This document shows positions 35,306 to 64,000 of a stretch of DNA of 64,000 nt, piece by piece. Origin of the DNA: Devosia nanyangense. Lineage in GTDB: Bacteria > Pseudomonadota > Alphaproteobacteria > Rhizobiales > Devosiaceae. Where the stretch lies: contig JACRAF010000019.1 in assembly GCA_016213505.1 (NCBI GenBank), positions 1-64,000 of the forward strand. The letters are read 5' to 3'. Below the pieces are notes generated by a model. That model had not been told where the DNA came from. It was given only the letters and a program-made list of their open reading frames with translations, and searched no databases. Numbering within the stretch: position 1 is the first letter of the stretch; every line of letters begins with the position of its first letter. The translations under genes and the position numbers were made by a program.

Positions 35306-36066
35306 GCGTAGGTCTTCCAGAAGAAATACGCCGTAAGCCCGGCGCCGTAGACGATCACAAGCCAGCGGATCACCCGCGTCGGGATGTGGTGGGCCAACCG
35401 CGCCGCGACATAGCCGCCGGTGGTGACCCCCAGCAGCGCGATGGTGCCGTGGTACCAGTCGATCGAGCCCGAGATCGCAAAACGGATCACCGCGACGATC
35501 GCGATCACCGCGGATATCCAGAGCTTCAGCCCGTTGGCGGCGTGGAGGTCATCGATCCCGGCCAGCACCAGGAACGCCAGCAGCAGGATGCCGAGACCGG
35601 CGTTGAAGAACCCGCCATAGATCGAGATGCCGCCGAGCAGCGCCACCAGCACCATCGCGCCCGCCACTTTGGCGCGGCGGCCCGTCCCGGCGCGCGCCGA
35701 AACGAACGCCGTGATCCGTGTGCCGAAGACGAAAAGCACCACCGCGAACAGCATCAACCAGGGGACGGCGAAGGAGAACTGCGCGTTGGAGACGCGCAGC
35801 AGCAGCTCCGCGCCGGCGTAGCCGAAGATCGCGCCGACGATCGAATAGCCCGCCAGCCGGTCCCGATATTTCACGATGTGCGACCACAGCCCGAAGGCGC
35901 CCGACGCATATCCCGGAAGCGCCGCGTAGGTGTTGGACGCGTTCGCCAGCACCGGCGGAACCCCGACCGCCAGGAGCGCCGGAAAGACGATGAACGAGCC
36001 GCCGCCCGCCAGCGTGTTGACCGCGCCGCCCAGAAGGCCCGCGACGAGGAGGATGAATTCGTTCAC
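35302..36066 (-). CDS. TauE/SafE-family permease
   Basis: A 254-residue protein with about eight helices of the sulfite exporter TauE/SafE (TSUP) family. Repeats include GLLGGAVNTLAGGGSFIVFPALLAVG and GISIYGGFFNAGLGILLLAFL. A GTG start at 36066 gives normal family length; the longer frame adds a non-homologous N-terminus. The stop overlaps the convergent molybdoenzyme stop. Such permeases move sulfite, sulfonates or related anions; which one is unknown. Confidence 0.85.
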   Translation of the reverse strand: MNEFILLVAGLLGGAVNTLAGGGSFIVFPALLAVGVPPVLANASNTYAALPGYASGAFGLWSHIVKYRDRLAGYSIVGAIFGYAGAELLLRVSNAQFSFAVPWLMLFAVVLFVFGTRITAFVSARAGTGRRAKVAGAMVLVALLGGISIYGGFFNAGLGILLLAFLVLAGIDDLHAANGLKLWISAVIAIVAVIRFAISGSIDWYHGTIALLGVTTGGYVAARLAHHIPTRVIRWLVIVYGAGLTAYFFWKTYA

Positions 36067-43653: not shown

Positions 43654-43675
43654 CATACAAAAGTATGATCTTATG
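43654..43675. promoter_or_regulatory. Candidate GntR operator, site A
   Basis: A dyad CATAC-AAAA-GTATG (43654-43667) lies between the regulator and the binding-protein gene. The 16 bases AAAGTATGATCTTATG (43660-43675) recur with one mismatch at 45806-45821 upstream of the regulator's own operon. Control by the adjacent FadR-type protein is inferred. Confidence 0.55.
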
Positions 43676-44498
43676 GCGATTGCGCTTTCCTGTCGTCCAG
43701 CGCCACGAGGGCATTTGTCAGGGCGCTCTTGCCTTGGAGGATCACCTCGAGCATGGCCGTGGCGGCGGCCTCGGGTTCGCCCTTGTTGATGGCGTCGAAG
43801 ACCCGCCGATGCTCGGCGGCGTCCTTGGCGAAATCGGTTCCGGCCTCGCTGAGCGAGCGCTGCTGGATCGAAAAGCTCATATGCAGGAAATCGGCGACCA
43901 GGTGCCCAAAGCGCTGCAACAGCACATTGTGGGAGGCTGCGAACACGGCCATGTGGAACTCGACGTCGCTCTCGGCGTAGCCGATCGGATCGGTGGCATG
44001 GGCCGCCATCCGCGTATGCGCCTGCTCGATATTGCGCAGATCCGCCATGGTGGCGCGGCCGGCCGCGAGGCGGGCGGTCGCCGGCTCAATGATCTGCCTG
44101 AGCTCGATGAGGTCGTGCATGACGGCTTGGCTGAGGCCCTGCTGGTGGTGCCAGGCCAGCACGTCGCTGTCGAACACGTTCCACAAATCGCGGGCCCGGA
44201 CGCGAGTGCCGACCTTCTGCCGGATCTCGATCAGGCCCTTGGCGGCGAGCACCTTCATGGCCTCGCGGATGGAGGTCCGACTGACGCCGTATTCGGTGGT
44301 GAGCTCGGCCTCCCTGGGCAGCAGCACCCCCGGCGCGTAGCGCCCGCCCACGATGTCGCGGCCGAGCGCCCCGATCACCTGACCCTGGAGGCCGCGCAGC
44401 GAGTAGCCCGAAGCGCCGTCCCGCTGGCGCGTCGCGGCCGCCCCGCGCGGCCTGGCCGGGTTCCGGCGTCTGGTCTCGACCTTGGCGGCATCGGGCAT
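43671..44498 (-). CDS. GntR/FadR-family transcriptional regulator
   Basis: A 275-residue regulator. A basic N-terminal extension of about 35 residues precedes the winged helix (GGRYAPGVLLPREAELTTEYGVSRTSIREAMKVLAAKGLIEI, about residues 50-95). The FCD ligand domain has metal-type residues (AESDVEFHMAVFAASHN, AEHRRVFDAI). FadR-type members usually sense sugar acids or other carboxylates. It lies 9 bases after the dehydratase gene and upstream of the alpha-galactoside operon, so it probably controls both. Confidence 0.92.
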   Translation of the reverse strand: MPDAAKVETRRRNPARPRGAAATRQRDGASGYSLRGLQGQVIGALGRDIVGGRYAPGVLLPREAELTTEYGVSRTSIREAMKVLAAKGLIEIRQKVGTRVRARDLWNVFDSDVLAWHHQQGLSQAVMHDLIELRQIIEPATARLAAGRATMADLRNIEQAHTRMAAHATDPIGYAESDVEFHMAVFAASHNVLLQRFGHLVADFLHMSFSIQQRSLSEAGTDFAKDAAEHRRVFDAINKGEPEAAATAMLEVILQGKSALTNALVALDDRKAQSP

Positions 44499-45805: not shown

Positions 45806-45821
45806 AAAGTATGATCTAATG
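45806..45821. promoter_or_regulatory. Candidate GntR operator, site B
   Basis: AAAGTATGATCTAATG matches site A in 15 of 16 positions. It lies about 120 bases upstream of the dehydratase start, inside the 188-base gap before the aminotransferase gene. That gap holds no other gene. Confidence 0.5.
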
Positions 45822-45904
45822 CCAAGACAACGAAAATGCGAGGCGAGCCTCGAACACAGCCATGGGCTGCGTGCCTGGCGACGGCCCGGCCGCTGCGGCC
45901 TCGT

Positions 45905-47338: not shown

Positions 47339-48643
47339 TCAGTTGAGCCGGGTGAAGCCGCTGTGGGCCACCGGGCCCTTGAGCAGCGCCATGACGTCGC
47401 GACCGTCCTCGCATTCGCGGATCAGGGCGAAGATCGGCTCGAGCGCCTCGAAATAGTCATCGACGATCTTGGGCGTGTGCTCGGTGCAGACGTAGACCAT
47501 GTTGGCGGCGAGATAGCCCCTGGCCAGCATCTCCTGGGTGATCAGCGTACGGTAGGCCTGGGCCTTCGGGCTCTTGAAACCGAAGCCGGTGAGGGCAGGG
47601 AGGCCCGCGGTGGTCAGCGGCAGGCCGTACTTGGCCCCGAGCTTCTGCCAGCGGGCGGTGATGTCGCGGCCGGTCGCGGTGATCTTCTCCCACGACCGTT
47701 CCTTTTCCATCACCTTGAGGGTCTCGATGCCGGCGACCGAGCCGATCCGCTCGGTCCAGAAGGTCGAGGAGATGAAGGTGTTCTGCGCCGCCTCCATGAT
47801 CTCGCGCTTGCCGAGCACGCCGGTCACCGCATAGCCGTTGCCCAGCGCCTTGCCGAACACCGCCATGTCGGGATCGACGCCATAGACCTTGTGCAGGCCG
47901 CCCAGCGCCTGGCGGAAACCGGAGGTGCACTCGTCGAAGATCAGGACGATGTTGCGCTCGTCGGCGAGCTTGCGGACGTTCAGCAGAAATTCCGGTGCAG
48001 GATCGAAGTTGCGCGACACCTCCATCTTGATCACGCCAATGTTCTGGGTGCGGACCAGTTCTTCGAGCATGTCGAATTTGTTGTAGGTGAACGGAAATAC
48101 CGAGCCGCGCAACGATTGTGGAACGCCGTTCGGGCTAAGGCCCGGCAGAAGGTGGCCGGCGAGCTGCTCCTCGTTGCCCAAATTGGCCGCGAGATACCAG
48201 TCGTGCCAGCCGTGATAGCCGCACAGCGCCACGCCGTCGCGGCCGCTGGCGGCCCGGGCGATGCGGATGGAGATGGCATTGGCCTCGCCGCCGGAGCGGG
48301 CGAAGCGGGCCATGTCGGCCCAGGGATGGAGCGCGATCAGGCGCTGCGCGAGCTCGACCTCCTCAGGCGCATTGAGCGTCGACATGTTGCCGAGATCGAC
48401 CGTGCGCTTGACCGCTTCGTCGACTTCCGGGCGGCCATAGCCCAGGGTGTTGCAGCCGATGCCCATGATCGACATGTCGACGTATTGGCGGTCGTCGAGA
48501 TCCCAGACGCGGCAGCCGGAAGCCTTTGAGAAATAGGCCGGCCATTGCTCGGGGAGGAACATCTCGGGGCGCTTGGAGAGCAGCATGTTGCCGCCGGGTA
48601 TGACGGTCTTCGCCGTCTTCCAGAGGTCCTGCCCCTTGCCCAT
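47339..48643 (-). CDS. Class III PLP aminotransferase (GSA-aminomutase-like)
   Basis: A 434-residue fold-type I enzyme. The PLP lysine is K265 (VFGKALGNGY), the aspartate is D237 (FDECTSGFR) and GYHGWHDWY is at about residues 142-150. It resembles glutamate-1-semialdehyde aminomutase-like aminotransferases, but its setting is catabolic. The start at 48643 has a GGGGGAG site. It is the first gene of a three-gene operon whose promoter overlaps the 48687-48716 dyad. Confidence 0.87.
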   Translation of the reverse strand: MGKGQDLWKTAKTVIPGGNMLLSKRPEMFLPEQWPAYFSKASGCRVWDLDDRQYVDMSIMGIGCNTLGYGRPEVDEAVKRTVDLGNMSTLNAPEEVELAQRLIALHPWADMARFARSGGEANAISIRIARAASGRDGVALCGYHGWHDWYLAANLGNEEQLAGHLLPGLSPNGVPQSLRGSVFPFTYNKFDMLEELVRTQNIGVIKMEVSRNFDPAPEFLLNVRKLADERNIVLIFDECTSGFRQALGGLHKVYGVDPDMAVFGKALGNGYAVTGVLGKREIMEAAQNTFISSTFWTERIGSVAGIETLKVMEKERSWEKITATGRDITARWQKLGAKYGLPLTTAGLPALTGFGFKSPKAQAYRTLITQEMLARGYLAANMVYVCTEHTPKIVDDYFEALEPIFALIRECEDGRDVMALLKGPVAHSGFTRLN

Positions 48644-48686
48644 TCCCGTCTCCCCCATCGCCCGTCATGCGGGGCGTTGACCCAAT

Positions 48687-48716
48687 GCTATCTTGTTATA
48701 AGAATAACACGATAGC
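48687..48716. promoter_or_regulatory. 30-bp operator dyad with overlapping promoter
   Basis: GCTATCTTGTTAT (48687-48699) and ATAACACGATAGC (48704-48716) are inverted arms matching at 12 of 13 positions around AAGA. For the minus-strand operon, a -35 TTGACT (48722-48717) and -10 TATAAC (48700-48695) with a 16-base spacer bracket the dyad, so a bound regulator would block the polymerase. The beta-propeller gene diverges from the same site. Confidence 0.7.
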
Positions 48717-51396: not shown

Positions 51397-51422
51397 CGCT
51401 GCCTCTTGATCGAGATATTCGC

Positions 51423-51436
51423 TTATCATTATAACA
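51423..51436. promoter_or_regulatory. Element related to the 48687-48716 operator
   Basis: TTATCATTATAACA matches TTATTCTTATAACA, the minus-strand core of the 48687-48716 dyad, at 12 of 14 positions. It lies in the divergent 133-base gap between the jelly-roll and amidohydrolase genes. A TTGACA box on the minus strand is at 51460-51455. A common regulator for both divergent pairs is inferred. Confidence 0.5.
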
Positions 51437-51529: not shown

Positions 51530-52570
51530 ATGGCCGCCATCGATCTCGCCGACATCGCGCCGACCGATCTCGATACCCGCGTCTGGCAGGAGGAACTCGC
51601 CGACTTCGTGCCGGACAAAGTGTTCGACGTGCACACACACATCTATCGCTGGGCCTTCGACCTCGACCCCAACCGGGCGACCGGGCCGTTCGCCGGCAAC
51701 ATCGGACGCTACTTCCCCGAGGTGACGTGGGAGCTCGCCGACGAGGTGGATGCGGTGCTGATGCCGGGCCGCAGGATGGAGCGGCTGGCGTTCCCGTTTC
51801 CGTTCCCAAAACCCTGCGATTTCGAGGCGTCGAACACCTACGCCGCCGCCGAGGTGCGCAAGGGCGGGACGTCGCGCGGGCTGATGCTGACCCATCCGGG
51901 GATGAGCGCGGACGACATCGAGGCGACGGTGCGCCGCACCGGGCTCATCGGGCTGAAACCCTATCGGTTCTATGCCTCGACCGGCGATGCGGTGCAGTGC
52001 CGGATCACCGATTTCCTGCCGGAGCATCAGATCGCCGTCGCCGACCGGCTCGGGCTCATCATCATGATGCACGTGTCCAAGCGCGATGCCATCGCCGACC
52101 CCGACAACATCGAGGACATGCTGCGGCTCAGCGACAAATACCCGGGCGCCAAGTGGATACTCGCCCACTGCGCGCGCAGCTACTCGGCCTGGGCGATCGA
52201 GAAGGCGGCCGCAAAGCTCCGCGGCCTGCCCAACGTCTGGTACGACACCTCGACGGTGTGCGAGTCCGATGCGCTCGATGCCCTCTACACCGGCGTCGGT
52301 GTCGATCGCGTCATGTACGGCTCGGACGACATGATCGGGCCGATGCGCGGCAAGTATGTCGCCTTCGGCAAGGCCTGGGCGTACCTGTCGCCGGACAATC
52401 ACTCGCTCGGGCTCAGCCACTGCGACTCCCGCATGACCTATGTCCGCTACGAGCAGCTGCGCGCCATGAAGCGCGGTGCGCGCCAGCTCGGGCTCACCAC
52501 GGCGCAGCGTGAAGCGCTGTTCTACGGAACAGCGCGGGCACTGGTGGACTCCGTCGAGGTGCCTCAGTAG
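51530..52570 (+). CDS. Amidohydrolase-2 family protein
   Basis: A 346-residue metal-dependent TIM-barrel hydrolase. Metal ligands include H35 and H37 (FDVHTHIY), with further positions in MMHVSK, LAHCARS and YGSDD. This family includes lactonases such as fuconolactonase and decarboxylases. Given its sugar-acid neighbours, lactone opening is plausible but unproven. It is divergent from the jelly-roll/DapA operon and convergent with the hydroxyacid oxidase. Confidence 0.82.
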   Translation: MAAIDLADIAPTDLDTRVWQEELADFVPDKVFDVHTHIYRWAFDLDPNRATGPFAGNIGRYFPEVTWELADEVDAVLMPGRRMERLAFPFPFPKPCDFEASNTYAAAEVRKGGTSRGLMLTHPGMSADDIEATVRRTGLIGLKPYRFYASTGDAVQCRITDFLPEHQIAVADRLGLIIMMHVSKRDAIADPDNIEDMLRLSDKYPGAKWILAHCARSYSAWAIEKAAAKLRGLPNVWYDTSTVCESDALDALYTGVGVDRVMYGSDDMIGPMRGKYVAFGKAWAYLSPDNHSLGLSHCDSRMTYVRYEQLRAMKRGARQLGLTTAQREALFYGTARALVDSVEVPQ

Positions 52571-52573
52571 GGC

Positions 52574-53746
52574 TCAGTGCCCGTGTGGCGCGATGAGGTC
52601 GTTGGACTCGATGTTGTGGGCGCCGAGCGTGGTGACATCGGTTTCGCCCATCAGCCCGAGGGTGGTGTCGGCCTCGGCCCGGATGATGTCGATCACGCGG
52701 TCGACTCCGGCTTCGCCGGCGACGCCGAGGCCATAGAGGAACGGCCTGCCGATGAACACGGCGCGGGCCCCGAGCGCCACCGCCTTCAGCATGTCGTGGC
52801 CTGAGCGCACGCCGCTGTCGAGATAAATCTCGCATTTGCCGCCAACGGCGTCGACGATGCGCGGCAGCACGCGAATGGTGGAGGGCGCGCCGTCGAGCTG
52901 GCGGCCGCCATGGTTGGACACGATGATCGCATCGGCGCCGTGAGCGACGGCCTCACGCGCGTCGTCGGGGTGGAGAATGCCCTTGACCACCAGCGGTCCG
53001 CCAAAGCGCTTCTTGATCCACAGCAGGTCGGTCCAGGTTAGGGTGAGGTCGTCCTGCTGCGACATCCATTCGGCGAGAGCAGCAACGGTCGTCGCGCCGG
53101 GGACGTGGCCGGCGAAATTGCCGAAGGTGCGATGCCGAGTGCGCAGCATCGCGAGGGACCAGCGCGGTTTCATCGCCATCTCGGCCACGAATTTCGGGGT
53201 CATCTTCAGCGGCACAGTGAGGCCGTTGCGGACGTCTTTGTGACGCTGGCCGCCGAGCTGGCAATCGAGCGTGACGACGATGGCGCCACATTTGGCGGCG
53301 CGGGCGCGATCGATCAGCCGCTCGTTGAAGTCGCGGTCCTTGCGAACATAGAACTGGAACCAGAACGGCACGCTGGTGGCTGCGGCGACATCCTCGATCG
53401 AGCAGATGCTGACGGTCGAGAGCGTGAAGATGATGCCGGCCTTTTCCGCAGCCCGCGCCGCCTTGATCTCGCCGTCGGCGGCCTGCATGCCGGCGGCGCC
53501 GGTCGGCGCCAGCGCCAGCGGCATCGACACCGTCCGCCCGAGCATGGTGGTGGTGAGGCTGCGGCCCGCAATGTCCCGGCCGACCCGCTGTTCGAGCCGA
53601 ATCTTGCCGAAGTCCGCGCTGTTGTCGCGGTAGGTGCCCTCGGTGTAGGCGCCCGAATCCGCGTATTGGAAGAACATGCGCGGCACGCGCCGCTCGGCTA
53701 CCTTCATGAAATCGTCGACGGTCAGAAATCGGTCGAGCCGCGTCAT
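52574..53746 (-). CDS. FMN-dependent alpha-hydroxyacid oxidase/dehydrogenase
   Basis: A 390-residue TIM-barrel of the LldD/glycolate oxidase family that oxidises 2-hydroxy acids to 2-keto acids. The catalytic histidine H279 lies in SNHGGRQLDG, and the active-site arginine follows in the same motif. FMN-contacting segments are LALAPTGAAGM and LDSGVRSGHDMLKAVALGA. It is the last gene of the long minus-strand operon starting near 62062. The substrate could be lactate, glycerate, glycolate or a pathway intermediate. Confidence 0.88.
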   Translation of the reverse strand: MTRLDRFLTVDDFMKVAERRVPRMFFQYADSGAYTEGTYRDNSADFGKIRLEQRVGRDIAGRSLTTTMLGRTVSMPLALAPTGAAGMQAADGEIKAARAAEKAGIIFTLSTVSICSIEDVAAATSVPFWFQFYVRKDRDFNERLIDRARAAKCGAIVVTLDCQLGGQRHKDVRNGLTVPLKMTPKFVAEMAMKPRWSLAMLRTRHRTFGNFAGHVPGATTVAALAEWMSQQDDLTLTWTDLLWIKKRFGGPLVVKGILHPDDAREAVAHGADAIIVSNHGGRQLDGAPSTIRVLPRIVDAVGGKCEIYLDSGVRSGHDMLKAVALGARAVFIGRPFLYGLGVAGEAGVDRVIDIIRAEADTTLGLMGETDVTTLGAHNIESNDLIAPHGH

Positions 53747-54667: not shown

Positions 54668-55594
54668 TCAGAGCGCGTCGAGGAAGGCGACGCCGCTGAG
54701 CTGGCGGTCGTCGCGCAACTGGCGGAACTCGTCCTTGAGCTTGTCCTCGGCGGCTTTGTCGATGAAACCGCCGAGTGGACGGCGGACATAGCCGGCGTCG
54801 CAGCCGAGCCAGGCCATGCCGCGCTTGATGCAGGTCATCGCGCTACGGCCGAGCGCGAAGAAGATCACCGCGTTGCCGATTTCCTGCAGCCGCTTGGCTT
54901 CGGCAAGATTGCCGGCCGCCACCGCGTCACGCAGGGACAGCCAGATCTCCGGCATCAGGTTGTAGAACGAACCGATGATGCCGTCGGCGCCGAAGGCGAG
55001 GCCCGACATCGCCATCTCGTCGGCGCCTGAATAGACGATGAAGTGCTTGCCGATCTCCTCCTTGATGCGGATGATCTCGGCGTGGGTCGCGGCGGTGTAC
55101 TTGACGCCGACCACGCCTTCGATGCTCGAGATGCGTTTGATGACGTCGAAGCCGAGCGCGGCCATGGGCACGTTGTAGGCGATCATCGGCAGCTTGGTGG
55201 AGCTGGTTACGTCGGCGTAGTAGCCGTGGATCTGGTCGGCCGAGAACCCCCAGTAGAACGGGGGCACGGACGAGATCGCATCGACTCCGGTTCGCTCGGC
55301 GTGCTGCGCCATCTCGATCGAGTGGTAGGTGCTGATAGCGCCGATGTGCGCGATGATCGGGATGCGTCCCTTGACCTCATCGACGGCGATCTCGACGACG
55401 CGCTTGCGCTCCTCGGGCGACATCAGGAAGGATTCGCCAGTCGAGCCGGTGATGTACAGGCCCTCGAGCTTGCGCTCGATGAGGAACCGGATGACGGCGC
55501 GCAGCCGCTTCTCGTCGAGCCTCTCGCTCTCGTCGAACGGCGTCACCATCGCGGGAATGACGCCCGTGATGGACTTAATGTCGAAGGCAGGCAT
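54668..55594 (-). CDS. DapA/NanA-family aldolase (copy 2)
   Basis: A 308-residue Schiff-base TIM-barrel. The lysine is K165 (GVVGVKYTA), the tyrosine is Y140 (IAYNVP) and the carboxylate-binding motif is YITGSTGES at residues 48-55. STGE in place of TTGE, together with KYTA, resembles the N-acetylneuraminate lyase branch more than dihydrodipicolinate synthase. It lies 28 bases after the transporter ATPase gene. The likely role is pyruvate release from an imported nonulosonic or deoxy-keto sugar acid. Confidence 0.82.
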   Translation of the reverse strand: MPAFDIKSITGVIPAMVTPFDESERLDEKRLRAVIRFLIERKLEGLYITGSTGESFLMSPEERKRVVEIAVDEVKGRIPIIAHIGAISTYHSIEMAQHAERTGVDAISSVPPFYWGFSADQIHGYYADVTSSTKLPMIAYNVPMAALGFDVIKRISSIEGVVGVKYTAATHAEIIRIKEEIGKHFIVYSGADEMAMSGLAFGADGIIGSFYNLMPEIWLSLRDAVAAGNLAEAKRLQEIGNAVIFFALGRSAMTCIKRGMAWLGCDAGYVRRPLGGFIDKAAEDKLKDEFRQLRDDRQLSGVAFLDAL

Positions 55595-55622: not shown

Positions 55623-56642
55623 CTAGGCAGCGGCTTCGGGTGCGTCGATCAGATGGCAGGCCGCATAGTGGTCGTCGCGGCCATCGATAGAATAGCGTTT
55701 CAGTGTCGGTACCACCGTCTTACACACATCCTGGCGGAACCGGCAGCGCGGGTGGAACGGGCAGCCGGATGGCGGGTTGACCGGGCTGGGCACGTCGCCT
55801 TCGAGCACCACGCGTTTGCTGCGCTTGTCGAGGTCGGCCACCGGAATGGCCGAGAGCAGGGCCTGCGTGTAGGGGTGGAGCCGGCGCGCATAGAGGTCTT
55901 CGGAGCGGCACAGTTCGACGATGCGGCCAAGATACATCACCGCGATGCGGTCGCAGATGTACTCGGTGACGCTGAGGTTGTGGGTGATGAAGACGTAGGT
56001 GAGGTTCTTCTCGCGCTTGAGCTTCATCAGCAGCTGCAGCACCTGCGCCTGGATCGAGACGTCGAGGGCGCTGACCGCCTCGTCGCAGACGATGAGTTCC
56101 GGATCGACACAGAGGGCGCGGGCGATGCCGATGCGCTGACGCTGGCCGCCGGAGAATTCGTGCGGGTAGCGATCCATATATTCGGGCCGCATGTTCACCG
56201 CCTCGAGCAGGTCACCGATGATCTTGCGGCGGGCGGCCCGCGTCTTGACGCCGAACTTCTTCAGCGGGTCTTCGAGCGAGCCGTAGATGGTGAAGGCCGG
56301 GTTGAGCGAGGAATGCGGATCTTGAAAGACGATCTGCAGGCGCTTGCGATAGGGATCGAGCTCGCGGGCATTGAGCCCGGTCAGTTCCACCTCCTCGGTC
56401 GCGGAGGAGTAGGTGATTTCGCCGGCCGTGGCCTTGACCAGCTGCAGGATGGTCTTGCCCAGCGTGGTCTTGCCGCAGCCGCTCTCGCCGACGAGGCCCA
56501 GCACTTCGCCGCGGTAGATGTCGATATCGACGCCGTCTACCGCCTTGACGTGTCCGACGGTGCGGTGGAACACCCCCGCCTTGACGGGAAAGTGAGCCTT
56601 GACGCCCCTCAGCTTGAGGATGATTTCGGCGTCATGCGCCAT
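55623..56642 (-). CDS. Dipeptide/oligopeptide-type ABC transporter ATPase (DppF-like)
   Basis: A 339-residue ATPase. Walker A is GESGCGKTT, the signature is FSGGQRQRIGIARAL and Walker B is ELIVCDEAVSALD. The C-terminal oligopeptide-transporter extension has paired cysteines (CPFHPRCRFRQDVC). The start at 56642 overlaps the DppD-like stop by 11 bases. It powers the transporter of this operon together with the next gene. Confidence 0.94.
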   Translation of the reverse strand: MAHDAEIILKLRGVKAHFPVKAGVFHRTVGHVKAVDGVDIDIYRGEVLGLVGESGCGKTTLGKTILQLVKATAGEITYSSATEEVELTGLNARELDPYRKRLQIVFQDPHSSLNPAFTIYGSLEDPLKKFGVKTRAARRKIIGDLLEAVNMRPEYMDRYPHEFSGGQRQRIGIARALCVDPELIVCDEAVSALDVSIQAQVLQLLMKLKREKNLTYVFITHNLSVTEYICDRIAVMYLGRIVELCRSEDLYARRLHPYTQALLSAIPVADLDKRSKRVVLEGDVPSPVNPPSGCPFHPRCRFRQDVCKTVVPTLKRYSIDGRDDHYAACHLIDAPEAAA

Positions 56643-57636
56643 CGGCCGCAAGCTCCTCGTAGCGCCAGCACATCGTCCGGTGCGTGGGGGTGGTGTGGGT
56701 TTCGGCCGGCATCGTCGCGCAGGCGTCGACGCGGTAGGGGCAGCGGGGCGCGAACTGGCATCCGGGCGGCCGGTCGAAGGGGTCGGGGGTCGAGCCGGGA
56801 ATGGCCTCGATCGACTGGTTCTTGCCCTTGCCCAGCACCGGCATCGAGGTGAGCAGGGCGCGCGTATAGGGGTGCACCGGGTGCCGCAGCACCTCCTCGA
56901 CCGTTCCGGCCTCGACGATGTTGCCCATGTACATGACCGCCACGTCGTCGGCGAGCTCGGCCACCACGCCCATATCGTGGGTGATCAGCATGATGGCGGT
57001 GCCGTGCTCGCGCTTGAGCCGATCCATCAGCTCGAAGATCTGGGCCTGGATGGTCACGTCGAGCGCCGTTGTGGGTTCGTCGGCGATGAGGATCTTGGGG
57101 TTGCACGCCATCGCCATGGCGATCATCGCCCGTTGCCGCATGCCGCCCGAGAACTGGTGCGGGAATTCGCCGGCGCGGCGCTCGGGCAGGGGGATGCCCA
57201 TGGTCCTGAGCAGATCGACGACCTTGTCGCGGAGTTGCCGGCCGCGCATTGCCGTATGGTAGCGCAGGTTTTCCGCGATCTGAAAGCCGATCGTGAACAC
57301 CGGATTGAGCGCCGTCATCGGGTCCTGGAAGATCATGCTGATCTCGGCCCCGCGGATGGCGCGCATCTGGCTGCCGTTGCGCGCCAGCCGTTCGATGTGA
57401 ATGTCGCCATGGTCGCTGTGATAGACGATCGAGCCGTCCTCGATGCGCGACAGGGTCGGCAGCAGCTGCATGATCGCCGCCGCGGTGACGCTCTTGCCGC
57501 AGCCGCTCTCGCCGACCACGCACAGCGTCTTGCCCTTCCTGATCTCGAACGAAACGCCGTTGACGGCCTTGTTGCAGCGCCGGTTGGTGTAAAAGAAGGT
57601 CTTCAAATCCCGGACGCTGAGCGCGACGTCTGACAT
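56632..57636 (-). CDS. Dipeptide/oligopeptide-type ABC transporter ATPase (DppD-like)
   Basis: A 334-residue ATPase. Walker A is GESGCGKSV, the signature is FSGGMRQRAMIAMAM and Walker B is KILIADEPTTALD. The C-terminal cysteine-bearing extension reads PPGCQFAPRCPYRVDAC. It partners the DppF-like subunit and lies 4 bases after the permease gene. Confidence 0.94.
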   Translation of the reverse strand: MSDVALSVRDLKTFFYTNRRCNKAVNGVSFEIRKGKTLCVVGESGCGKSVTAAAIMQLLPTLSRIEDGSIVYHSDHGDIHIERLARNGSQMRAIRGAEISMIFQDPMTALNPVFTIGFQIAENLRYHTAMRGRQLRDKVVDLLRTMGIPLPERRAGEFPHQFSGGMRQRAMIAMAMACNPKILIADEPTTALDVTIQAQIFELMDRLKREHGTAIMLITHDMGVVAELADDVAVMYMGNIVEAGTVEEVLRHPVHPYTRALLTSMPVLGKGKNQSIEAIPGSTPDPFDRPPGCQFAPRCPYRVDACATMPAETHTTPTHRTMCWRYEELAADGA

Positions 57637-57640
57637 CGGC

Positions 57641-58576
57641 CTATCCCTGCTGCGTGGGGTCGGAGGCGTCGCGCAAGCCGTCGCCGATGAAGTTCACGCT
57701 GAGCACGAACAGCGAAATGAAGATCCCGACCGGCAGCCACAGCCACCAGTTGTTCTGCAGCACGGCAAGGTCCTGCGCCACGTTGAGGATGTTCCCCCAG
57801 GTCGGCATGCTGAGCGGCACGCCCAGCCCGAGGAAGCTCAGCCCCGCCTCGGCGAGGATGAAGGCCGCCGTCGACAGCGTGATGTTGACCATCACCGGTC
57901 CCAGCGCGTTGGGCAGCATGTGCTTGAAGCTGATGAGCCCCCGGTTGAGCCCGAAGCTGCGCAAGGCGAGGACGTACTCTTCCTCGCGCAGGGACAGCAT
58001 CTGGGCGCGGACCAGCCGATAGATGCCGCACCAGCCGCCGAGGATGAAGATCGCCATGATGTTGAACAGCGACTGGCCGACGATCGACACCAGCATCAGC
58101 ACCAGGATGATCTCGGGAAACGCCATGATCGCTTCCGAGACGCGCATCGCGATGGTGTCGAGCCGGCCCCCGACGTAGCCGCAATAGCAGCCGATGATGA
58201 CCCCGATCGCAGCCGAAACCAGGGCGCTGCCGAGGCCGACCAGGATCGAGATGCGACCGCCATAGAGGACCCGCGCGAACACATCGCGTCCGGTCTTGTC
58301 GGTGCCGAACCAGTGCTCCGGCGATGGCGGCTGCGCGATCGCGCGCAGATTGATCTTGGTCGGATCCCACGGCGTGAGGAGCGGCGCGAAGATCGACATC
58401 AAAAGGATGACGGTGAAGACCGTGAGGCCGATCACGGCCAGCCGGTTGTTGAGGAACTTGCGCACGAAGCGGCTGCCGCCGGCGGCACGCAGCGCACCGG
58501 CTTCTTCGAGCCGACGCAGCTGGTCGAACTGACGGTCGAGCCTGCTGCGCCGGCTGACGATATCGATGAGCGCCAT
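57641..58576 (-). CDS. Dipeptide-type ABC transporter permease (DppC-like)
   Basis: A 311-residue permease with a long N-terminal cytoplasmic segment and six helices, including HWFGTDKTGRDVFARVLYGGRISILVGL, the DppC/OppC signature. It starts 2 bases after the DppB-like stop. Confidence 0.93.
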   Translation of the reverse strand: MALIDIVSRRSRLDRQFDQLRRLEEAGALRAAGGSRFVRKFLNNRLAVIGLTVFTVILLMSIFAPLLTPWDPTKINLRAIAQPPSPEHWFGTDKTGRDVFARVLYGGRISILVGLGSALVSAAIGVIIGCYCGYVGGRLDTIAMRVSEAIMAFPEIILVLMLVSIVGQSLFNIMAIFILGGWCGIYRLVRAQMLSLREEEYVLALRSFGLNRGLISFKHMLPNALGPVMVNITLSTAAFILAEAGLSFLGLGVPLSMPTWGNILNVAQDLAVLQNNWWLWLPVGIFISLFVLSVNFIGDGLRDASDPTQQG

Positions 58577-58578
58577 GA

Positions 58579-59535
58579 TCAGGCCCCTAGCCTTACGCGC
58601 GGATCGATGACCGCGGTGAGCACGTCGATGATCAGACTTACCGTGAGCACCAGCACCACCGAAAGCAGCGCGATCGTCATCACCACGGGAAGGTCCTTGT
58701 TGCGCACGGCACTGACGAACAGGTTACCCAGCCCCGGCCATTGGAACACCTGCTCGACGATCACCGAGCCGCCGATCAGGATGGGCAGCCGGAACCCGAC
58801 CAGCACGATCACCGGGGTGAGGGCGACGCGAAAGCCGTGCAGCAGGTTGACGCGCCACTCGGGCAGCCCCTTGGAGCGGGCGGTCTTTATGAACTCGCGG
58901 CTCAGCGCATCGAGCATCGAGGAGCGAGCATAGCGCATGACGCCAGCCGTCATCATGATCGAGAGCACCAGTGCCGGCATGATCAGGTTGGGGATGTGGT
59001 CCCAGTAGCTGTCGTAGCTCGGCAGCAGGCGGCCGCCCACCGGCAGCCAGTTCAGGTTGAGCGCGAACACGACGATGGCGACGAGGCCGAAGAAGAACTC
59101 GGGGATCGACACCCCGATCATGCCGACCACGGTTAGCACGTTGTCGGTCGCCGAACCGCGGCGCAAGGCGCTGATCGTGCCCAGGATCGATCCCAGGATG
59201 GTGGAAAGGATGAGCGCCGTACCCGACAGCTCGAGCGTCGCGGGCAGGCGGTCGACGAGCAGGCTCGAGATCGGCACGCCGCCGGTGAGGGTATAGCCGA
59301 AATGACCCTGTAGAACGCCGGTCAGCCAGATCCAGTAGCGTACGATGAGCGGGCTATCGAGACCCAGGGCGTGGCGCAGCTCCGCCAGCTTCTCCGGGTC
59401 GACCGTGCGGGTAGGATCCAGCATGTGCGAGACGGCATCGCCCGGCGTGAGGTCGAGTCCGAGATAGATGAGGAAGCTGACGGCGACGGCCATCGGGACA
59501 ATGATCAAAATCCGCCGGATGATGTAAGTCAGCAT
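58579..59535 (-). CDS. Dipeptide-type ABC transporter permease (DppB-like)
   Basis: A 318-residue permease beginning MLTYIIRRILIIVPMAVAVSFLIYLGLDLTPGD, the standard DppB N-terminus, with six helices and an EAA-like loop (FIKTARSKGLPEWRV). It lies 76 bases after the binding-protein gene. Confidence 0.93.
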   Translation of the reverse strand: MLTYIIRRILIIVPMAVAVSFLIYLGLDLTPGDAVSHMLDPTRTVDPEKLAELRHALGLDSPLIVRYWIWLTGVLQGHFGYTLTGGVPISSLLVDRLPATLELSGTALILSTILGSILGTISALRRGSATDNVLTVVGMIGVSIPEFFFGLVAIVVFALNLNWLPVGGRLLPSYDSYWDHIPNLIMPALVLSIMMTAGVMRYARSSMLDALSREFIKTARSKGLPEWRVNLLHGFRVALTPVIVLVGFRLPILIGGSVIVEQVFQWPGLGNLFVSAVRNKDLPVVMTIALLSVVLVLTVSLIIDVLTAVIDPRVRLGA

Positions 59536-59611: not shown

Positions 59612-61234
59612 CTACTTGTCGTACTGGTTGATCCAGATCATGCGGGTGTAGGGGATATCCAGCGGCGTCAGCTTCATGAAGTCCAGCGTCTTGAGGGTCT
59701 CGAGATCGTTCACCGCCTTGGTGATGGCGAAGTCGATGCGGTGCGCGGCGGCATTCTTGACCATATTGGCGTCGCCGTCACCACTCGCCCAGGCGATGAT
59801 CTGGTCGATCTTGGCCTTGCCCTTCCAGTAGCCGTCGAACGGCACGAACGAGGTGAAGTCGCCGAACTTGGCTTCCTCGACCATAAACGGGCCCGAACCG
59901 ACCGGCTTCTGCCAGAACGGGGCCTGCTGCAGCAGGGTGGGATCGACGCCCTCGAAGTACTTCTTGGGCAGCGGCCCCCACTGCGTGAACGACAGCAGCA
60001 CGTTGGGATCGACCTTGGCGAACTTGATCGTGATGGTCTTGCCGTCCACCGAGATGCCCGAGATGTGCGGGGCGGTGCCGGCGACAAAGTCGGCCGCGCC
60101 CTCGATCGAGTTGAAGGTGTTGGCCAGCACGCCGTGCAGCGTCGGCACTTTGAGTGCCGTCTCGAGGCTCCACACCACGTCGTCGGTGGTGATCGGCTCG
60201 CCGTCTTGCCACGTGGTGCCGTCGCGCATCGTGAACGTCACGGTCTTGCCGTCATCGCTCACTTTGTACGTATCGGCGAGGTCGCCTTCCGCCACGCCGT
60301 CCATGAACGGCTTGGCCGAAAGCATGTGTGCCCAGATCATCTTGTTGCCGGCCCACAGGCCGAGGTTGACCCAAGGCTCCTCGAAATAGTCCACCGGCGC
60401 CGCGTTGGTGTACATGACTTTCTTGCCGTCGGCGTCCGGCTCGACCGTCCAGTTCTGGATGTTCCAGTCATAGTTGAACTGGTCGTTGCCGTGTGGCTCG
60501 CCATTGCGGTTCAGACGGTTGCTCTCCACCGCATAGAGCTGCTGGTAGTAGAGCGGAATGGTGAGGGCGTTTTTGTTGATGTACTCATCGATCGACATCA
60601 GCGCCTTCTTGGTCACCTCCGGATCGGTCGACGAGTTGGAGTCGGCGATCAGGCCGTCGAGCTCCGGCGATCCGGGGAAGCCGTCGGCGCTGGCTTTGCC
60701 GGTGGCATAGTCGTTGAAGTATTCCTGCATCGCGATGGCGGCGCGGGCGCCGTAGCCCAGGTCCCAGGTCACCACCGATTTGCCCTTCGGATCGTCCGGG
60801 ATCGAGTTCAGCGTCTTGGCCACGTCGCCCACCAGCAGGTGGTAGTTCATGGTGATGCCGACGTCGGCCAACTCGGCCTGGAGCACGGTCATCAGGTTCG
60901 CGGTGACCTGGTCGTCATAGTAGAACACCATCTCTAGCGTTCGGCTCGAATCCCAGCCGGCTTGCTTGAGAAGTTCGCGCGCCTTGTCCGGATTGAACGG
61001 ATAGGGATCGAGGTTGGGGCTCTTGAACGGCCCGTTGGGCAGAAGCCCGTCGGCCCGCACAGCGTAACCTCCGAGCACCGTGGCGATGATGGTGTCCTTG
61101 TCGATCGCATAAGCGATCGCCTGGCGCACCCGCACATCGGACATCGGGTTGCCATTGAGCGCTTGGGCGTAAACCGTGCCCATCAAGGCGGTCTGCAGAA
61201 GTAGGGCCACTGCAGTGGCTTTCAGCATCCTCAT
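59612..61234 (-). CDS. Circularly permuted family-5 substrate-binding protein
   Basis: A 540-residue exported binding protein of the DppA/OppA type, but with halves swapped. After a signal peptide (1-24) comes what is normally the C-terminal half: SDVRVRQAIAYAIDKDTII (32-50) through NYDWNIQNWTVE (254-265). A short PDADG linker follows, then what is normally the N-terminal half: KKVMYTNAAP (271-280), VSDDGKTVTFTMRDG (325-339), TTDDVVWSL (349-357) and FDGYWKGKAKID (466-477), ending RMIWINQYDK. In E. coli DppA the last segment directly precedes the VRQA segment. It is the only binding protein of this operon. Confidence 0.85.
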   Translation of the reverse strand: MRMLKATAVALLLQTALMGTVYAQALNGNPMSDVRVRQAIAYAIDKDTIIATVLGGYAVRADGLLPNGPFKSPNLDPYPFNPDKARELLKQAGWDSSRTLEMVFYYDDQVTANLMTVLQAELADVGITMNYHLLVGDVAKTLNSIPDDPKGKSVVTWDLGYGARAAIAMQEYFNDYATGKASADGFPGSPELDGLIADSNSSTDPEVTKKALMSIDEYINKNALTIPLYYQQLYAVESNRLNRNGEPHGNDQFNYDWNIQNWTVEPDADGKKVMYTNAAPVDYFEEPWVNLGLWAGNKMIWAHMLSAKPFMDGVAEGDLADTYKVSDDGKTVTFTMRDGTTWQDGEPITTDDVVWSLETALKVPTLHGVLANTFNSIEGAADFVAGTAPHISGISVDGKTITIKFAKVDPNVLLSFTQWGPLPKKYFEGVDPTLLQQAPFWQKPVGSGPFMVEEAKFGDFTSFVPFDGYWKGKAKIDQIIAWASGDGDANMVKNAAAHRIDFAITKAVNDLETLKTLDFMKLTPLDIPYTRMIWINQYDK

Positions 61235-61384: not shown

Positions 61385-62062
61385 TCAGAGAATTCCGTGT
61401 TTCGCAAAAATGTCGGTGAGCGCGCCCCCGGCGCGAATCTCGTCGCGGACGACATTCTCGGCGGCGACCTTCTCCATCGCCTTGTCCACCACCTCGTGGA
61501 GCACTCCCCTGGGCACGATGACGATGCCGTCGAAATCGCCGAAGACCAGATCGCCGCTGTCGACGCGCACGCCGCAGATTTCGCCCGGCACGTCGTAAAG
61601 GAACATCTTGCCGCGAAATTTCGTGTCGACCGGGTTGGTGCCGCTCGAATAGACGGGAAAATTGAGGGCGCGGATGCGGCTGGTGTCGCGAACGCAGCCA
61701 TCGGTCAGGCAACCGGCCGCACCCAGATACGAGGAGCGCTCGGACAGCAATTCGCCCCACGGGGAAATGCGCTGGATGCCGTGGCAGACGAGAACCGGAA
61801 CCTCCTCGGGACGAAGGCTGTCAACGAGGGCGATCTCGTTCTCGTAGACCCGCATGCTCTCGTCGTCATGATAGACCGGCATGTAGAGGCCGACCCGTGC
61901 CAGACCGCACAGCACCAGGCTGGCGTCGAGCGCCTTGATGCCCGGGGTCAGGACCTGGTTGTGGTAGCCGAGGGTATCGAGGGAATCTGAAATGGCAGCC
62001 GAGTTGAGCCGCGTGCGGCACTGCCGTACGAGTTCGGCGATGTCACTTTGCCCCGTCACCAT
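61385..62062 (-). CDS. RraA-like family protein (aldolase/decarboxylase type)
   Basis: A 225-residue member of the RraA/HMG-aldolase family. Conserved blocks are SDSLDTLGYHNQV, WGELLSERSSYLGAAGCLTDGCVRD and GDLVFGDFDGIVIVPRGV. Family enzymes use a divalent metal to cleave or decarboxylate pyruvoyl or oxaloacetate-type acids. It is probably the first gene of the long operon (RraA, binding protein, DppBCDF, aldolase, hypothetical, oxidase), though a 150-base gap follows. A shared promoter element lies 112 bases upstream. Confidence 0.85.
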   Translation of the reverse strand: MVTGQSDIAELVRQCRTRLNSAAISDSLDTLGYHNQVLTPGIKALDASLVLCGLARVGLYMPVYHDDESMRVYENEIALVDSLRPEEVPVLVCHGIQRISPWGELLSERSSYLGAAGCLTDGCVRDTSRIRALNFPVYSSGTNPVDTKFRGKMFLYDVPGEICGVRVDSGDLVFGDFDGIVIVPRGVLHEVVDKAMEKVAAENVVRDEIRAGGALTDIFAKHGIL

Positions 62063-62397
62063 CGTCCCCCTGGTGCTGCCTCGAACGGCGTTTCAGTCAA
62101 AGTCGCGGCTGCGTCAAAACCCCAGCGTCCGGCCTCGCGGCCGGTCGTTCGGCGACCCTGCGCCAAACACAGCATATACCATTAACATAACAACATATCA
62201 GTTTGAGGAGTCAAGAGCGCATTGAGCGGGGTGGCGCGCGGCTTCGGGCGGGTGCGCGAAAGCCTTGCCGGACACGGGTTTGCGGTGAGTGAGCGTGGCT
62301 CGAGTTGAGGGATCGGCGCATGCCGCGCCGACGGGAGTACGGAGCAGCACGCGCCGATGTGAGCGGTCCAGCGGCCCGGGAGGACGCTACCGGATGC
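62063..62397. other. Intergenic region with promoter/operator
   Basis: No gene is seen in these 335 bases. They contain the shared element at 62174-62197 and a TTGACT box (62214-62209, minus strand) upstream of the RraA-like gene. The part from 62215 to 62397, downstream of the reductase gene, shows no recognisable structure. Confidence 0.6.
62174..62197. promoter_or_regulatory. Shared regulatory element, copy 1
   Basis: A 24-base sequence beginning ATATACCATTAACATAACAA is identical to 63222-63245. With the next 18 bases, 36 of 42 positions agree, ending in AGTCAAG, which is a TTGACT -35 box on the minus strand. It lies upstream of the RraA-like gene and is the likely promoter/operator of the long operon. 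Confidence 0.7.
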
Positions 62398-63192
62398 TCA
62401 ACTCGTCATCGCCTCGATATCGAAGCGGTCCGACGATCCGGTCGGCCGCCAGCCGAGCACTTCTTTGGCGTGCGAGGTATCCCGCCAGCGACGCGAATTG
62501 TCCGAGATGGCATCGAAGATGTCGAAGCGAATGCTGTCGGGGGCACCGAGGCACTTGTCGACCATCTGCACCGCATCGGCTTGCGCGAGGTAGCCGGGGA
62601 AGTGCCGCACGATTTCCGGTCGGTCGCTTTGCAGCACCGCGCCAAGGCGGATGCAGATCACCGACATGCCGTAGCGATCCGAAAACAGCCGGCCGGTGTT
62701 TTCGCCGAACAGCTTGCCGACGCCATAGAAGCTGTCGGGTCGCGGCGGGTCGAGATAGGTGATCATCTTCTCGCCGGGTGGCAGCGCCTGCAGCTCGTTG
62801 GCCGCGAGCTTGCCGTAGGGCGAGCCCTCGTACCACTCGTAGCCACACATGGTGCTGCCGGTGCTCATGAACACCACGCGTTTGACGCCCGCCTCCTGCG
62901 CAGCGCGGTACATGTTGAGCGTGCCGCCGATGGTGTTGCTCATCACCTTGTCCCAGTCGTCATAATCCTGCGTCTCGGCAGCGAGGTGCAGCACCATGTC
63001 CATGCCTTCGCACGCCTTGCGGATGGCGACCGGGTCGCCGATCTCGGCCTGCGTGTGCTTGATGTCGGGCACGACGCGGCGGCTCAGGCCGCTGAATTCG
63101 TATTTGTTCGAGAGGTCGCGAATGACCAGGCTGCCGATGAGGCCGCTGGCGCCGGTGATCAGCACCTTGGGTTTGTTCGCAGTCGGCGCCAT
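62398..63192 (-). CDS. NAD-dependent reductase, uronate-dehydrogenase-like
   Basis: A 264-residue short-chain (extended) dehydrogenase. The Rossmann motif TGASGLIG is at residues 13-20 and the catalytic Y156-x3-K160 lies in DSFYGVGKLFGEN. The size, YGVGKLFGEN and the WRDTSHAKEVLGWRP end segment resemble uronate dehydrogenases, which oxidise galacturonate or glucuronate to aldaric-acid lactones. The start is at 63192 (MAPTANKPKVLIT). The promoter element at 63222-63245 lies 30 bases upstream. Confidence 0.8.
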   Translation of the reverse strand: MAPTANKPKVLITGASGLIGSLVIRDLSNKYEFSGLSRRVVPDIKHTQAEIGDPVAIRKACEGMDMVLHLAAETQDYDDWDKVMSNTIGGTLNMYRAAQEAGVKRVVFMSTGSTMCGYEWYEGSPYGKLAANELQALPPGEKMITYLDPPRPDSFYGVGKLFGENTGRLFSDRYGMSVICIRLGAVLQSDRPEIVRHFPGYLAQADAVQMVDKCLGAPDSIRFDIFDAISDNSRRWRDTSHAKEVLGWRPTGSSDRFDIEAMTS

Positions 63193-63221
63193 TCGTGATC
63201 CCCCGAGATTGACAGCCAAGA

Positions 63222-63245
63222 ATATACCATTAACATAACAACATA
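63222..63245. promoter_or_regulatory. Shared regulatory element, copy 2
   Basis: The same 24 bases as at 62174-62197, lying between the divergent reductase and Gfo/Idh/MocA genes. A TTGACT box follows on the minus strand (63262-63257). Both divergent genes may be controlled from here. Confidence 0.7.
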
Positions 63246-63316
63246 CTAGTCTTGGAAGTCAAGCCGGATCGCGGTCAGACTGTGCCGGGCTGAGCGGGAT
63301 AGCGAGGGCAGTCGGG

Positions 63317-64000
63317 GTGCACAGGGTCCTAATCGTCGGCAGCGGCGGCATCGGCCGCCGCCATCTCAAGGGCTATGGGCTGACCGGCCGGGCGGAACTC
63401 TCGATCGTCGAGCCGGATGCCGGCCGGCGCGCCGAGGCGATATCGATGTTCGACGTCGAGCACGCCTTCACCGACATCGCCGAGGCCGACCTCGAGAGCT
63501 TCAACCTCGCTGTGATCTGTGCACCCGCCAACTTTCACGTGCCGCTGATGCTGCGCTGCGCCGAGGCGGGGCTCCCCTTCATGGTCGAAAAGCCTCTGGC
63601 GGTGACGATGGACGGCGTCGATGCGGCACTTGCCCTGGTTGCCGAAAAAGAGATCGAGGCGCGGGTCGGCTATGTCCGCCGCGTCGCCGAGGAGGTGATC
63701 GCACTCAGGCAGCAGATCCTTGCCGGCAAGATCGGGTCCGTGCGGCTCGCCTATCTCAATTCCTCGCAGGAATTCCCGAAATACCGGCCGGATTTCCAGC
63801 GCACCTATTATGCTCGTCCGGAGATGGGCGGCGGCGCCATTCTCGATGCCGCCAGTCATCTCTTCGACATGCTGATCTGGCTGATGGGCAAGCCCTCCGA
63901 CGTCGGCTGCATGTTCGACCGGCTGGTGCTGGAGGGAACGGAGACCGAGGACACCTGCCTCGTCACCATCCGCTTCCAGAGCGGCGCGATGGCCAACGTC
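63317..64000 (+). CDS. Gfo/Idh/MocA-family oxidoreductase, partial
   Basis: An open frame from GTG at 63317 runs without a stop to the window edge (228 codons seen). The N-terminal NAD(P)-binding motif is VLIVGSGGIGRRH, the sugar-dehydrogenase motif EKPLAV follows near residue 92, and GGGAILDAASHLFDM matches the second domain. Such enzymes oxidise or reduce sugars, inositols or their derivatives. A GAGGG site precedes the start. It diverges from the uronate-dehydrogenase-like gene at a shared regulatory element. Confidence 0.85.
   Translation, partial: MHRVLIVGSGGIGRRHLKGYGLTGRAELSIVEPDAGRRAEAISMFDVEHAFTDIAEADLESFNLAVICAPANFHVPLMLRCAEAGLPFMVEKPLAVTMDGVDAALALVAEKEIEARVGYVRRVAEEVIALRQQILAGKIGSVRLAYLNSSQEFPKYRPDFQRTYYARPEMGGGAILDAASHLFDMLIWLMGKPSDVGCMFDRLVLEGTETEDTCLVTIRFQSGAMANV

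Follow-up and report, generated by a model that had tools for sequence, protein, structure and literature searches.

The window analysed here, by which we mean the whole 64,000-nucleotide stretch of a Devosia nanyangense contig, has a G+C content of 66%, as the first-pass annotation had stated, and ends within a catabolic gene cluster. A minus-strand operon begins with an RraA-like aldolase-family gene (61385-62062) and continues with genes for a family 5 ABC transporter solute-binding protein (59612-61234), the rest of the ABC transporter (55623-59535), a DHDPS-superfamily aldolase (54668-55594), for which N-acetylneuraminate lyase models are closest, below their cut-offs, and an FMN-dependent alpha-hydroxy-acid dehydrogenase family protein (52574-53746). 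Within the transporter, the ATPase at 55623-56651 carries ABC_tran and oligo_HPY domains, and the ATPase/permease genes at 56632-59535 were named from their sequence rather than from a library scan. Upstream of this operon lies a minus-strand NAD-dependent epimerase/dehydratase-family gene (62398-63192, likely ATG at 63190-63192, open reading frame opening at 63219), previously called uronate-dehydrogenase-like, and divergent from it is a plus-strand Gfo/Idh/MocA-type oxidoreductase gene (63317-64000) that runs on to position 64318 of the contig. Further left are a plus-strand amidohydrolase gene (51530-52570), the minus-strand class III aminotransferase gene that heads another operon (47339-48658) and a minus-strand GntR/FCD-type regulator gene (43671-44498).

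The cluster also holds an HpcH/HpaI aldolase, a BNR-repeat protein and several sugar-type dehydrogenases, as well as amidohydrolases, aminotransferases and DHDPS-type aldolases. Given this gene content, we read it as a system that probably imports and degrades a sugar acid or related compound. The window's contig (C68, end 67990) ends with residues 1-96 of a gene whose residues 96-426 start a second contig (C22), judged by a 426-residue relative; the two contigs therefore abut, which places the regulator discussed below about 5.4 kb to the right of the window. The cluster is syntenic in six relatives with long contigs (G015, G011, G012, G006, G004 and G002). Also on C22 is a gene (L056:7514-9796) for a 760-residue protein in which an MFS transporter domain is joined to HEAT repeats, with counterparts of 69-71% identity in the six relatives.

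Six related sites in one catabolic cluster

The starting point was an exact repeat described in the first-pass annotation, and its details hold. The element ATATACCATTAACATAACAACATA occurs at 62174-62197 (copy A, minus strand) and 63222-63245 (copy B), identical at 24 of 24 bases with differing flanking bases, and the copies are 1,048 bases apart. Copy A lies 112 bases from the RraA-like ATG ending at 62062 and copy B 30 bases from the dehydrogenase-gene ATG ending at 63192, and each is followed by AGTCAAG (62209-62215 and 63257-63263, respectively). A 20-base probe with up to three mismatches matches the window twice, with no match in 100 shuffles. The same probe, run across the whole assembly as the annotation had proposed (4,191,025 bases or 4.19 Mb, 69 contigs, 91.75% complete), again finds the two copies and nothing else, and the reversed-pattern control gives zero. 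The many unrelated genome-wide copies that would have spoken against a specific operator are thus absent from this assembly. Plasmid records searched with positions 62100-63320 gave no match.

That annotation took the two copies to define a local regulon. The putative regulon is indeed local, but it comprises six related sites in one catabolic cluster rather than two: 48694, 51421, 62174 and 63222 in the window, and 3190 and 14215 on C22. The third site, TGTTATAAGAATAACA (48694-48709), has TTGAC on both sides (11 and 7 nt away) and lies between the minus-strand aminotransferase operon and a plus-strand gene of uncertain family. The fourth, which reads TGTTATAATGATAAGC on the minus strand (51421-51436), lies between a minus-strand gene of no assigned family and the plus-strand amidohydrolase gene. 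Both were found by reading intergenic tracts, as AT-rich blocks beside TTGAC. The fifth (C22:3190) stands before the transcription unit of the regulator itself and the sixth (C22:14215) precedes an M81/MlrC-type gene, before whose apparent counterpart in G024 there is a site as well. Near the end of the cluster of G015, around position 34009 of the joined stretch, there is a site with no obvious gene following it, perhaps the remnant of an M81/MlrC-type gene that has been lost; a site is found there in G011 and G012 too.

What the sites share is a degenerate 16-bp dyad, approximately TGTTATCATGATAACA, usually adjoining TTGAC. Among 20 candidate centres, the one used here is the most symmetric (z 3.2), and copies A and B (dyad frames 62180-62195 and 63228-63243) are weak dyads with three of eight pairs complementary. 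An earlier frame, TGTTATN4ATAACA, was dropped: it occurs at 10 places in this genome with up to two mismatches, against 11 for the reversed control, and a frame three bases away exceeds it in symmetry (again among 20 centres). A dyad matrix was seeded with eight sites, including the A/B core and some regulator-unit sites, and because these seeded the matrix their own scores are not independent. On this contig the four sites score 18.1 to 20.0 and nothing else exceeds 9.0 in 31,990 bases, from position 36001 to the end of the contig; in the further stretches covered, sites score at least 16.9 and the highest non-site 13.1. A 24-base matrix from a second profile, R1, built without this genome (see below), gives four window matches above 8 bits, which are the four sites, and none in the reversed window.

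Comparison with relatives separates the conserved part of the element from the rest. Nine of 18 other same-genus genomes have an orthologue that is 83-87% identical to the dehydrogenase gene; all nine have a related element upstream of it, and eight have one at the place of copy A, beyond the gene's other end (the ninth locus stops at a contig end). Copy A has a counterpart in each of the six relatives compared. When the two promoters are compared with their orthologues in six same-genus relatives, the 16-bp cores show 75-100% identity to this genome, as against 23-38% for the 40-bp flanks. Within each of the six relatives the A and B sites show 3 to 9 differences over 24 positions (one of the two B-type sites of G015, G011 and G012 being used), compared with only two in the same frame here. 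Hence the perfect identity of the copies is particular to this genome among those compared, and the degenerate dyad is the conserved part.

The surroundings of the dyad contain -35-like hexamers. A minus-strand TTGACT stands 13 nt from dyad A (62209-62214) and another 13 nt from dyad B (63257-63262), the latter reading towards the dehydrogenase gene. On the other side of dyad B, also at 13 nt, a plus-strand TTGACA (63209-63214) reads towards the gene at 63317 and, together with TAACAT (63231-63236), scores 10 of 12, so the site at 63222 can also serve this plus-strand gene. Of 29 sites taken from five genomes, 24 are flanked by a TTGAC no more than 30 nt away, seven of them on both sides; the corresponding 74 of 431 AT-rich positions are a weak control, as these include positions overlapping sites. 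The site before the regulator's unit has no TTGAC within 30 nt, and the same is true of its counterparts in G015, G006 and G002. At copy B and its counterparts in G006, G004, G002 and G024, two TTGAC are equidistant from the dyad, at 12 or 13 nt, and hexamers resembling a -10 element (4 to 6 matches, best of five spacings) lie inside the dyad on both strands. Those of copy B itself match at only four of six positions, also as the best of five spacings, and a promoter scan at copy B reported the plus-strand promoter only. G015, G011 and G012 instead have two B-type sites, separated by 169 bp, and TTGAC flanks each of them on a single side. This suggests that dyad and TTGAC form a promoter-operator unit and that copy B is one operator for two divergent promoters, those of the minus-strand dehydrogenase gene and the plus-strand Gfo/Idh-type gene, with copy A as the putative operator/promoter of the operon for RraA-like protein, ABC transporter, aldolase and oxidase. 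The assignments of -10 elements are putative.

A candidate regulator and the distribution of the sites

The first-pass annotation held that the regulator is not in the window and suggested looking just to the right for a GntR gene, among others, carrying the same site. Such a GntR-like gene lies at C22:1410-2420 (homology match 1413-2420), with a related site before its unit, and it is the regulator we favour. The annotation did overlook the GntR-family gene that the window contains at 43671-44498, but the product of this gene is probably not what binds the sites. Neither the 40-kb cluster stretches of the six relatives nor the 16 kb past their left ends (4 kb for G002) contain a counterpart, and the gene has another short repeat beside it. 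This repeat, AAGTATGATCTNATGSC, occurs at 43661-43677 and 45807-45823, before two minus-strand genes in the surroundings of the GntR/FCD gene, and may be the operator of that regulator itself; with three mismatches allowed, two matches also arose in 4 of 100 shuffled sequences.

All six long-contig relatives encode the favoured regulator, of about 331 residues, towards the right of their cluster. Across 19 same-genus genomes it is present in ten, the same ten that have the dehydrogenase orthologue. The Pfam GntR model matches residues 29-75 (E 8.9e-5, 22.5 bits, under the curated cut-off of 27) and all 21 homologues at E≤0.1 (best 5.1e-6), and the NCBIfam HutC model matches residues 16-85 (E 1.3e-7, far under its whole-protein cut-off). 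Residues 12-76, the predicted DNA-binding part, are nearly invariant in the 21 homologues, which overall are 54-88% identical to the first. For the C-terminal part, the top Foldseek match is a LacI-family regulator (E 3.7e-7) and the top VIA match is LacI-family 3bil (Z 14.6, 214 residues, rmsd 3.3), as expected of a GalR/LacI-type sensor domain. The structure model has a mean pLDDT of 57.5, with block means of 60-96 for residues 181-331, lower values before 181 and values below 50 for residues 1-104, and its N-terminal domain is too uncertain for use. We describe the protein as combining a GntR-like DNA-binding domain, predicted from sequence, with a LacI-type sensor fold, predicted from the model.

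Of 22 loci from Devosia, Kaistia and further genus bins, seven of them within the genus set, 21 have a similar site ahead of the regulator's unit; at the remaining locus the contig does not extend far enough to show it. Usually the site is followed by a short-chain dehydrogenase gene and then by the regulator, whereas in G015, G011, G012 and their like it lies about 110 bp from the regulator itself. Such a site before the own unit, expected for a dedicated regulon, is a sign of probable autoregulation.

To follow the sites across genomes we used profile R1, which holds 27 of 34 distinct sites, all from other genomes and none from this one, with three counterparts of site 48694 left out. At E≤10, R1 matches all ten same-genus genomes that have the regulator and none of the nine that lack it, although regulator, sites and cluster are inherited together and these counts are therefore not independent. 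In this genome it returns, at the same threshold, six rows for five distinct sites, all within the cluster, and misses site 48694. All R1 matches of the six long-contig relatives fall within one block of about 23-35 kb; in G003, G013 and G014 they are spread across several contigs, so the single-block result covers only the other six. At the scale of the order, nine of 397 genomes have the regulator (E≤1e-30), this one included, and R1 at E≤0.05 matches nine of these nine and two of the other 388; at E≤0.5, 29 of the 388 match as well. This comparison is partly circular and its counts are not independent, because six of the nine belong to one genus (g91), with one match each about 0.8 kb upstream of the regulator, and because G341, G368 (both g91) and G110 are the genomes of loci L064, L069 and L070, whose sites fed R1. 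Held out of the profile among the nine were this genome, G024 and four g91 genomes.

G024 is the clean held-out case. It has sites before three units of its cluster and a fourth 1.2 Mb away, which ends about 80 bp before a stretch matching the cluster's MFS-type gene (from query residue 16 on), the sole homologue of that gene in G024. Its one site outside the cluster thus appears to precede a relocated cluster gene. With this one exception the sites located are confined to the cluster and, within the genus, to regulator-bearing genomes, as expected of a dedicated metabolite-responsive regulon. The comparative data, namely core conservation and restriction to genomes with the regulator, support the specific operator of a local regulon that the first-pass annotation had proposed. 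We consider it highly probable that the element is the operator/core-promoter unit of a dedicated regulon under the C22:1410-2420 regulator, repressed until a ligand binds.

Alternative readings

The alternative that survives best, though we regard it as unlikely, is a regulator that uses these sites mainly to activate, or both to activate and to repress. The sequence is compatible with it, and the four-of-six hexamers at copy B are of the kind found in promoters that need help. However, at copy B the dyad overlaps the predicted -10 element in both directions, a place at which a bound protein would presumably stand in the way of polymerase.

Less probable still is binding of the dyad by another regulator that travels with the cluster, either the AraC-type protein (C22:10913-11707) or the FCD-type GntR protein of some relatives' ABC operon. 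The AraC-type gene is conserved beside the cluster here and in many relatives, and the FCD-type gene sits in the ABC operon under or near the counterpart of site A in G015, G011, G012, G024 and G110. Yet an AraC-type homologue is found in six of the 13 genomes compared and in neither G024 nor the six g91 genomes, all of them motif-bearing (short query at E≤1e-6, own protein at E≤1e-20), and an FCD-type homologue (at least 55% identity) is absent from this genome, G002, G004, G006 and the six g91 genomes. The GntR/LacI-type regulator is present in 13 of 13, and by distribution only this points to it as the probable binder. Two observations on gene content belong here. The FCD-type gene lies inside the ABC operon in the five genomes named (for example L079:4993-5742), and G110 has the RraA-like gene plus the FCD-type GntR gene, as against this genome, G002, G004 and G006, which have the RraA-like gene without it.

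It is very improbable that the two copies merely reflect a promoter fragment recently duplicated in place, with no dedicated regulator behind it. Such a duplication would fit the short distance between the copies and their 24-base identity, and as the A and B sites differ in the relatives, gene conversion in this genome may explain that identity. Both sites, however, have counterparts at the same places in relatives, with cores conserved and flanks not, and there are further sites in the cluster and before the regulator's unit. An alternative sigma factor promoter type or a dispersed repeat family, suggested by the TTGAC hexamer beside each of the two copies, is hardly credible, as this genome has no other copies at up to three mismatches and R1 matches none of the nine same-genus genomes without the regulator.

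Proposed mechanism and comparison with known systems

In the dedicated regulon that we favour, a dimer of the GntR/LacI-type regulator would bind the 16-bp dyad. The dyad would cover the -10 region, with TTGAC as the -35 element, where present, 7-18 nt outside it in this genome. At site 63222, with the dyad midway between two TTGAC at 13 nt each, one dimer could close both divergent promoters. The bound regulator would keep the ABC transporter, the aldolases, the dehydrogenases and its own unit off until a ligand, probably a sugar acid or related compound imported by the transporter, fills the sensor domain and causes release. The computed features are the sites and their positions, their conservation, their restriction within the genus to regulator genomes, the own-unit site and the fold of the sensor domain; direct binding, repression rather than activation, the ligand and the -10 assignments are our inference.

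The closest known parallel, taken from excerpts of the cited papers as are the other systems below, is AraR of Bacillus subtilis, which joins a GntR-type winged helix to a GalR/LacI-type C-terminal domain, forms the AraR subfamily of GntR and binds 16-bp palindromic operators, several of which lie before uptake and breakdown genes (PMC4494728, PMC4218819). The protein studied here has, as far as tested, the same predicted two-part build, with a putative GntR-type half, and has 16-bp palindromic sites, several before uptake and breakdown genes. However, the AraR operator consensus is At(T/A)tGTaCGTAcaa(A/T)T (PMC4218819) and the operator here, approximately TGTTATCATGATAACA, is not of this type; we therefore do not class the regulator as AraR proper, only as built like AraR. 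AraR is moreover placed in Firmicutes in the excerpt of PMC4494728, whereas the proteins here come from Hyphomicrobiales-type records, and the gene set differs. AraR chains are absent from the PDB sequence matches at E≤1 and from the matches listed in either fold search (best 50 each), which is not evidence of a different fold.

Two other GntR systems resemble this one less. GntR-family sites follow the motif NyGTNxACNy, with GT and AC 4 nt apart in most HutC-subfamily sites (PMC4494728, excerpt). The consensus dyad here can be written as GT-N10-AC, a gap of 10 nt compared with those 4 nt. NanR of E. coli is a GntR-type repressor of sialic acid metabolism that binds a (GGTATA)3-repeat operator, according to the excerpt of PMC8012715. 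The regulator here would likewise be a GntR-type, putative repressor for acidic-sugar breakdown, but its dyad is not of the (GGTATA)3-repeat form given there.

As to promoter geometry, Warman and colleagues describe, in the excerpted part of their paper, bidirectional promoters whose divergent starts lie next to or inside a -10 element common to both directions (PMC12825309). Copy B and its counterparts in G006, G004, G002 and G024 are similar in that TTGAC faces one dyad from both sides at equal distance. They differ in that the hexamers in the dyad are imperfect, and the likeness is one of sequence geometry. It is conceivable, though we rather doubt it, that the regulators form a separate, undescribed branch of Hyphomicrobiales GntR/LacI chimeras with an operator class of its own, in which the palindrome is the shared -10 element of a symmetric bidirectional promoter. 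If so, one dimer would lock both directions at once, and the unit would have been split into two one-directional units 169 bp apart in G015, G011 and G012.

A literature search, with most full texts outside its scope, found no account of this regulon, and we regard it as a new regulon of a familiar type. It links an uncharacterised sugar-acid-type cluster, common to part of Devosia and certain further genera, with a single regulator and an explicit operator. Regulon membership can be read from sequence, given that in G024 the profile found a cluster gene 1.2 Mb from the cluster. The locus is also a concrete case of a regulator whose putative site coincides with a predicted symmetric divergent promoter.
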